Source: Mucilaginibacter dorajii
GTDB lineage: Bacteria; Bacteroidota; Bacteroidia; Sphingobacteriales; Sphingobacteriaceae
Assembly (NCBI RefSeq): GCF_024808255.1
Contig: NZ_JANTYS010000016.1
Location: 1-64,000, forward strand
Direction of reading: 5' to 3'
Length of the DNA stretch: 64,000 bases
Within the stretch, counting starts at the first letter, position 1, and each line of letters opens with the position of its first letter. Shown piece after piece: positions 49,550 through 54,240 of this stretch. The notes below the pieces were generated by a model, which saw only the letters and a list, made by a program, of their open reading frames with translations, searched no databases and was not told where the DNA came from. The position numbers and the translations under genes were made by a program.

Positions 49550-49606
49550 CAAATATAATTAAGAAATCACCTTTCTACGAAATATTCGTACGAATATTTC
49601 GTAGAA
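49550..49606 (-). promoter_or_regulatory. Promoter and perfect 34-bp operator palindrome of the GLPGLI/TonB operon
   Basis: 49573-49606 is an exact 34-bp palindrome with core ATATTCGTACGAATAT and no spacer. On the minus strand TATATTTG at 49557-49550 fits the Bacteroidota -7 consensus TAnnTTTG, 51 bp before the GLPGLI ATG. The palindrome would then cover the -33 region. A dimeric regulator binding here could block or activate the operon. No -33 TTG is visible, which favours dependence on an activator. Confidence 0.65.
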
Positions 49607-49648
49607 TTAACATTATTTAACAATCCATACGATCAAAGCATGCCATTA

Positions 49649-50100
49649 CCAGGGAAATCGCTTTTACCCACAAGTAATGAATTCGTGTTATCTTAAGGCA
49701 TCTTTCTTTGTAGTTAGACACGAATACCCGCCGACCCGATTATAATTATTAATCGAACTTCAGGAATTTTGGAATTGATAGATAGCACAAATCAGGGCAA
49801 ACGCATCTGAATAGTCAACGGGATAAGCTGTTATTTAATTGCGCCGCACATCATTTTAGTGTTAACCATGTAAAAATATAAAATATTGATTATCATATAT
49901 TTGAGTCGATTTTTCTTTGAAATATGTTAAGTTATGTTAACCCTGGTTAGCTACGTTTGCCCTGTAGCACAAATTTAAATGTGATTAAACAAATTCATGG
50001 AATTAGCTAATGATCTATCGTACGGGCAGTTAAATTCGTGTTTATACAACGCTCAGCTTGTGAGCAAATAAATGTTAAATATTAAAAGCGATTTCCCTGG
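49649..50100. mobile_element. 452-bp MITE with 18-bp TIRs and 8-bp target duplication
   Basis: The terminal inverted repeats CCAGGGAAATCGCTTTTA are perfect over 18 bp at both ends (49649-49666 and 50083-50100). The 8-bp direct repeat TGCCATTA flanks it exactly (49641-49648 and 50101-50108). The interior is non-coding, AT-rich and without a transposase. This is a complete, apparently recent insertion of a non-autonomous element between the GLPGLI promoter and the NagD-type gene. Degenerate relatives lie at 50967-51121 and 54031-54240. The parent transposase family cannot be named from the ends. Confidence 0.88.
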
Positions 50101-50175
50101 TGCCATTATGTTTATTTTAAATAAGAATTTGATGGTATTGATTTACAGTTTTACCTTGCAGCATAAAATTTAAAC

Positions 50176-50966: not shown

Positions 50967-51121
50967 TCAGGGAAATCACTTTTGATATATTCCAAATAAA
51001 AAAAGGAAAAGTAGTTCGCGCAAAGACGCCAGGACGCAAAGAGAAGTAATGAAATGCTTTGCGTCCTGGCGTCTTTGCGCGATATCACTAACCGATTTAC
51101 TTTTAATTGTGATTTCCTTGG
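50967..51121. repeat. Family H-like element with a nested 25-bp hairpin
   Basis: The outer ends TCAGGGAAATCACTTTTG (50967) and the inverted GTGATTTCCTTGG (to 51121) resemble the MITE ends. Inside, perfect 25-bp arms (51017-51041 and 51057-51081; core CAAAGACGCCAGGACGCAAA) form a hairpin with a 15-base loop. It sits just after the NagD stop and may serve as its terminator structure. Confidence 0.75.
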
Positions 51122-54030: not shown

Positions 54031-54240
54031 TCAGGGAAATTCCTTTTAGAATCTAATTAAAAAGGGGGCACCTACGGAGCCTTGACAAGAACAATTTTCG
54101 GACTATAAACACGCGATTCCGCTGGAGTCTATTTAATTGCAGTTTAAAACTCCGTTAGGAGTATCGTGTTTATAGGTCTAAAATCATCTGTTTTTTTGAC
54201 TCCGTAGGTGTCTCCTATTTAAAAGCGATTTCCGTCGGGG
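54031..54240. repeat. Family H-like degenerate palindromic element
   Basis: The ends TCAGGGAAATTCCTTTTAG (54031) and the inverted AAAAGCGATTTCCGTCGGG (to about 54239) resemble the MITE ends. Inner inverted arms share GCACCTACGGAG and CTATAAACACG with their complements. It lies in the gap 53948-54357 between recQ and the GH2 gene; the rest of that gap holds only the GH2 terminator. Confidence 0.7.

Follow-up and report, generated by a model that had tools for sequence, protein, structure and literature searches.

Insertion sequences (IS) of the ISAs1 family have been described with inverted repeats of 14-22 bp starting with CAGGG, together with 10-bp direct repeats (PMC11946415). In Porphyromonas gingivalis, the MITEs MITE239, MITEPgRS and BrickBuilt share little beyond their terminal repeats with full-length IS, and a MITE239 has been found nested in one copy of BrickBuilt (PMC4596501). 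Nested MITEs, and likewise MITEs that have nothing but their ends in common with an IS, are as a kind already known and ordinary, and no description of MITEs in Mucilaginibacter or of ISPg2 MITEs was found in the literature searched. Here, we analysed a stretch of 64,000 nt of Mucilaginibacter dorajii DNA (the window), and assign a probability of roughly 0.92 to the reading that it contains a non-autonomous ISAs1-type MITE which carries a nested second MITE, and that this composite was spread by an ISAs1-family transposase. This reading draws on observed ends, duplications, nesting, copy number, and an IS of the same genus with matching ends and transposase. The family, the correspondence between ends and transposase, and the nesting history are new as far as the literature searches show; an orphan repeat family with many copies in Mucilaginibacter is now linked with a named clade of transposases, and the correct values for its boundaries and the length of its duplication are given along with the history of its nesting.

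Boundaries, copy number and setting of the outer element

The outer MITE, together with its insert, comprises 450 bp (49650-50099, Table 1) without any ORF of 40 aa or more, in agreement with an earlier note on this DNA that had called it a non-coding MITE. In the window sequence, CCAGGGAAATCGCTTTTA at 49649-49666 is answered by its exact complement at 50083-50100, and TGCCATTA flanks the element at 49641-49648 and 50101-50108, exactly where the earlier note had placed repeats and flanks. The perfect repeats and the target duplication therefore stand, but the lengths then given to them, 18 bp and 8 bp, had to be revised. End pairing, which took in all fetched loci of the host genome and yielded 47 paired copies, revealed that the base outside CAGGG differs among copies, so that the outermost C/G is flanking DNA and the terminal inverted repeat of the family is CAGGGAAATCGCTTTTA, with 17 bp and perfect in the window copy. 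The 10-bp flanks were identical in at least seven positions in 28 of the 47 paired copies (10/10 in 12, 9/10 in nine, 8/10 in four and 7/10 in three), compared with 0.8% of shuffled pairs, for which flanks from different copies were paired at random; the target duplication of the outer family is 10 bp. In the window copy it reads ATGCCATTAC and GTGCCATTAT (8/10 identical), and the mismatches at two outer positions of these flanks account for the impression of an 8-bp duplication with an 18-bp repeat.

Table 1 Features of the composite element and of related elements in the window
Feature	Positions	Strand	Remarks
Left 10-bp target-site duplication, outer element, ATGCCATTAC	49640..49649		8/10 identical to right copy
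Left terminal inverted repeat CAGGGAAATCGCTTTTA, outer MITE	49650..49666	+	Identical to one end of the ISAs1-family IS in L063
Left half, outer MITE body	49667..49792	+	Homologous to L030 and other copies
Left TAGCACAAAT, target duplication of inner MITE	49783..49792		10/10 match; single copy in L030
Inner nested MITE	49793..49964	+	Free-standing copies with 10-bp duplications (L106, L182, L184, L185)
Right TAGCACAAAT, target duplication of inner MITE	49965..49974		Sequence comparison
Right half, outer MITE body	49975..50082	+	DNA comparison, L030 alignment
Right terminal inverted repeat, outer MITE	50083..50099	-	Window sequence, end pairing
Right 10-bp target-site duplication, outer element, GTGCCATTAT	50100..50109		End pairing
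Second MITE, same end type, shorter, more decayed	50968..51120		Just 3' of NagD-type gene; duplication 7/10
Third MITE-like pair, same ends, decayed, 205 bp	54032..54236		Duplication 5/10

Taken alone, the window copy with its duplication match of exactly 8 bp and its repeat match of exactly 18 bp would suit a MITE that belongs to a different IS family with such dimensions, e.g., an ISL3- or IS1595-like one. We consider this very improbable, since the flank match across copies extends over 10 bp instead of the 8 bp of ISL3, IS1595 and similar families, the outermost base of the supposed 18-bp end varies, and these ends were found on an IS of the ISAs1 family.

Within the window, the 18-mer was found six times at up to three mismatches, with 0.05 occurrences expected by chance. 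The genome search with this 18-mer, as proposed in the earlier note, was run on the host draft genome (7.16 Mb, 55 contigs) and returned 122 matches at up to three mismatches versus six for a reversed control pattern, while the DNA comparison of the whole element retrieved many homologues from the same genome, both partial and full-length. Together, these numbers argue for a large dispersed family and not for a chance pairing. The assumption of a recent transposition, on the other hand, was not upheld: against the leave-one-out consensus, 9.9% of sites are changed in the window copy, a medium value for the 14 composites that were aligned (6-22%). The nearest aligned paralogue of this copy is about 88% identical over the element. 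Perfect ends alone are no proof of a recent transposition, and the two mismatches in the ten positions of the window copy's duplication fit the same age as the divergence from the consensus.

Both neighbouring genes proved to be of the GLPGLI and the NagD type, with the element between them as previously noted; they are divergent, and 76 bp separate the right end of the element from the NagD-type start codon. Promoter-like TAnnTTTG motifs of the Bacteroidota are found inside the element, e.g., at 49896 and 49952 (+ strand), and because they lack a convincing upstream partner we make no claim on expression for the element. With the NagD gene as anchor, an empty site was not found in relatives, and the relatives retrieved do not share the GLPGLI-NagD synteny. 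The element strand folds better than its shuffles (z = -4.6), which, together with the position of the window copy between two divergent genes, might point to a structured regulatory RNA or a REP-like chromosomal repeat kept for host function. We give this explanation little credence, because the extra folding includes the terminal stem expected from the inverted repeats, the copies are bounded by target duplications, the element has no Rfam match, an IS with the same ends exists, and the conserved position at orthologous loci which it predicts was not seen in the relatives retrieved.

Two more decayed MITE copies lie within 5 kb (Table 1), and the NagD-type gene is bracketed by MITEs; as each bracketing MITE has its own flanks, mobilisation of this gene as cargo seems unlikely. 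In addition, a perfect palindrome of 34 bp, TTCTACGAAATATTCGTACGAATATTTCGTAGAA, is located upstream of the GLPGLI gene at 49573-49606; the window contains a single occurrence of its 30-bp core, and the palindrome is possibly an operator or a terminator.

Nesting and apparent multiplication of the composite

The earlier note had treated the element as one complete MITE, which is true of the outer element but overlooked a second MITE nested inside it. This inner MITE has a length of 172 bp and the ends CAGGGCAAACGCATCT and CAGGGCAAACGTAGCT (also given as CAGGGCAAACGCATCTG and CAGGGCAAACGTAGCTAAC), and it is flanked on both sides by TAGCACAAAT, a perfect 10-bp duplication. A locus on contig C5 of the host genome (L030) comprises the outer element alone, with 259 bp, an outer duplication of 9/10 and a single TAGCACAAAT, and hence represents the empty site for the inner insertion. 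Moreover, free-standing relatives of the inner element of approximately 150-320 bp, several of them with 10-bp duplications, were found in the host genome (L182, L184, L185) and in another genome of the genus (L106), its sequence being spread over several genomes of the genus. The inner MITE is apparently an internally shortened form of a family of about 320 bp.

In most composite copies the inner element occupies one and the same site of the outer element, yet the genomic targets differ; the composite L002, with the inner element at the usual site, has its own outer duplication ATTCATCTAC. Since the inner site is constant while the targets vary, the composite seems to have multiplied as one unit. 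The same constancy in many copies could be explained if the 450-bp unit were a single ancestral element whose internal repeat merely resembles an insertion, but this is hardly likely considering that L030 lacks the inner segment and has a clean single target site, that the inner element exists alone with its own duplications in the host and in other genomes, and that a further locus (L027) has the inner type at a neighbouring position within an outer copy.

For the nested composite the following course of events is proposed. An outer MITE of about 260 bp with the ends CAGGGAAATCGCTTTTA would have existed first, into which a MITE of a second ISAs1 end type (CAGGGCAAACGCATCTA) would have inserted, duplicating 10 bp (TAGCACAAAT). 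An ISAs1-family transposase would then have recognised the outer ends and copied the composite to many sites with 10-bp target duplications, and one of these copies would have come to lie between the GLPGLI gene and the NagD-type gene, which are divergent. The ends of the inner element resemble those of the L064/L062 clade (CAGGGCAAACGCATTAAAA), and it is conceivable, albeit doubtful, that the composite could be moved by either ISAs1 subgroup, since it is predicted to have two nested pairs of functional ends, each for a transposase clade of its own. If true, ISAs1-type ends could build up larger mobile cassettes in Mucilaginibacter by serial nesting combined with the capture of cargo (compare L071), also in genomes that no longer have the autonomous IS.

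At L071:1334-2739 (genome G099), an ISAs1 remnant, a gene for a GNAT acetyltransferase and a MITE of about 170 bp are found together within a single pair of ISAs1-type ends, which is bordered by the perfect 10-bp duplication GTTACTTAAC. This locus is apparently a mobilised cargo cassette, and the position of its gene inside a pair of such ends illustrates how genes can be carried by repeats of this kind. Furthermore, short MITEs with the ends of the outer element and a length of approximately 190-250 bp were observed in G000 (L038, L043, L195, L213 and others). They contain a quasi-palindromic core of about 70 bp, which in some pairs aligns better when reversed relative to the remainder of the element, as would be seen after an inversion of the core.

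ISAs1-type ends and the matching transposase clade

Compared with the published ISAs1 signature (PMC11946415), CAGGGAAATCGCTTTTA starts with CAGGG and with 17 bp falls within the range of 14-22 bp, and the 10-bp duplication is seen in the family (at least 7/10 in 28 of 47 copies), perfectly in the inner element and with 8/10 in the window copy. As expected of an ISAs1-dependent MITE, the element has no transposase coding capacity and is present in multiple dispersed copies. The search for a full-length copy with the same ends and a transposase, also suggested by the earlier note, was successful within the genus, as the contig of an uncultured Mucilaginibacter MAG (L147) carries an intact IS of 1235 bp (L063) with the ends CAGGAAAATCGCTTTTA and CAGGGAAATCGCTTTTA and the 10-bp duplication TGAAGTTACC. 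Its transposase of 383 aa scores 387 bits against the NCBIfam model transpos_ISAs1 (NF033564) and contains both Pfam domains (PF13808 and PF01609). ISAs1 matches were obtained in 14 out of 149 genomes of the genus. The transposase fragments of L071, L072, L074, L079, L086 and L090, all of them loci with GAAATCGC ends, are closest to L063, and those at loci with GACGCAT-type ends are closest to other ISAs1 clades. Outside the genus, a Paludibacter IS (L148) combines a 53% identical transposase with CAGGGAAAACGCTTTTA ends and a 10-bp duplication.

The mobilising transposase, rightly reported as absent from the window, was not found with these ends in the host draft genome either. Searches with the NCBIfam model, the L063 protein and PF01609 detected no ISAs1 transposase there, although control genomes gave matches, and none of the three DDE_Tnp_1 genes of the host carries these ends. 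The outer family thus appears stranded in the host draft genome, in which no ISAs1 transposase was found. Judging from the sequences, we infer that a transposase of the L063-type clade probably moved the outer element in trans.

An origin of the MITEs as deletion derivatives of L063 was likewise not supported, as the comparison shows the ends alone in common, with no clear common sequence past about 18-25 bp; L063 is therefore not demonstrated as the parent.

A different, multi-copy ISAs1 subgroup of 1161-1163 bp with the ends CAGGGCTGTTGCATT was observed at L068, L069 and sister loci (G121, G040). Most of its 10-bp duplications are, exactly or nearly, the palindrome CTCTCGAGAG, which suggests a strong target-site preference.

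Comparison with described mobile elements

The window element and the IS of the ISAs1 family are alike in their CAGGG-starting inverted repeats and 10-bp direct repeats (PMC11946415), whereas the element codes for nothing and has only the ends in common with such IS. A likeness to mobile insertion cassettes and composite transposons exists via L071, where the GNAT gene lies between an ISAs1 remnant and a MITE, but the window element differs from these in having no cargo gene. With the P. gingivalis MITEs, the family shares its occurrence in Bacteroidota, IS ends as little more than the common part, and nesting. The P. gingivalis MITEs, however, have ends of the IS5 family and those described here have ISAs1-type ends, and, unlike in P. 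gingivalis, it is apparently the nested composite as a whole that has multiplied.
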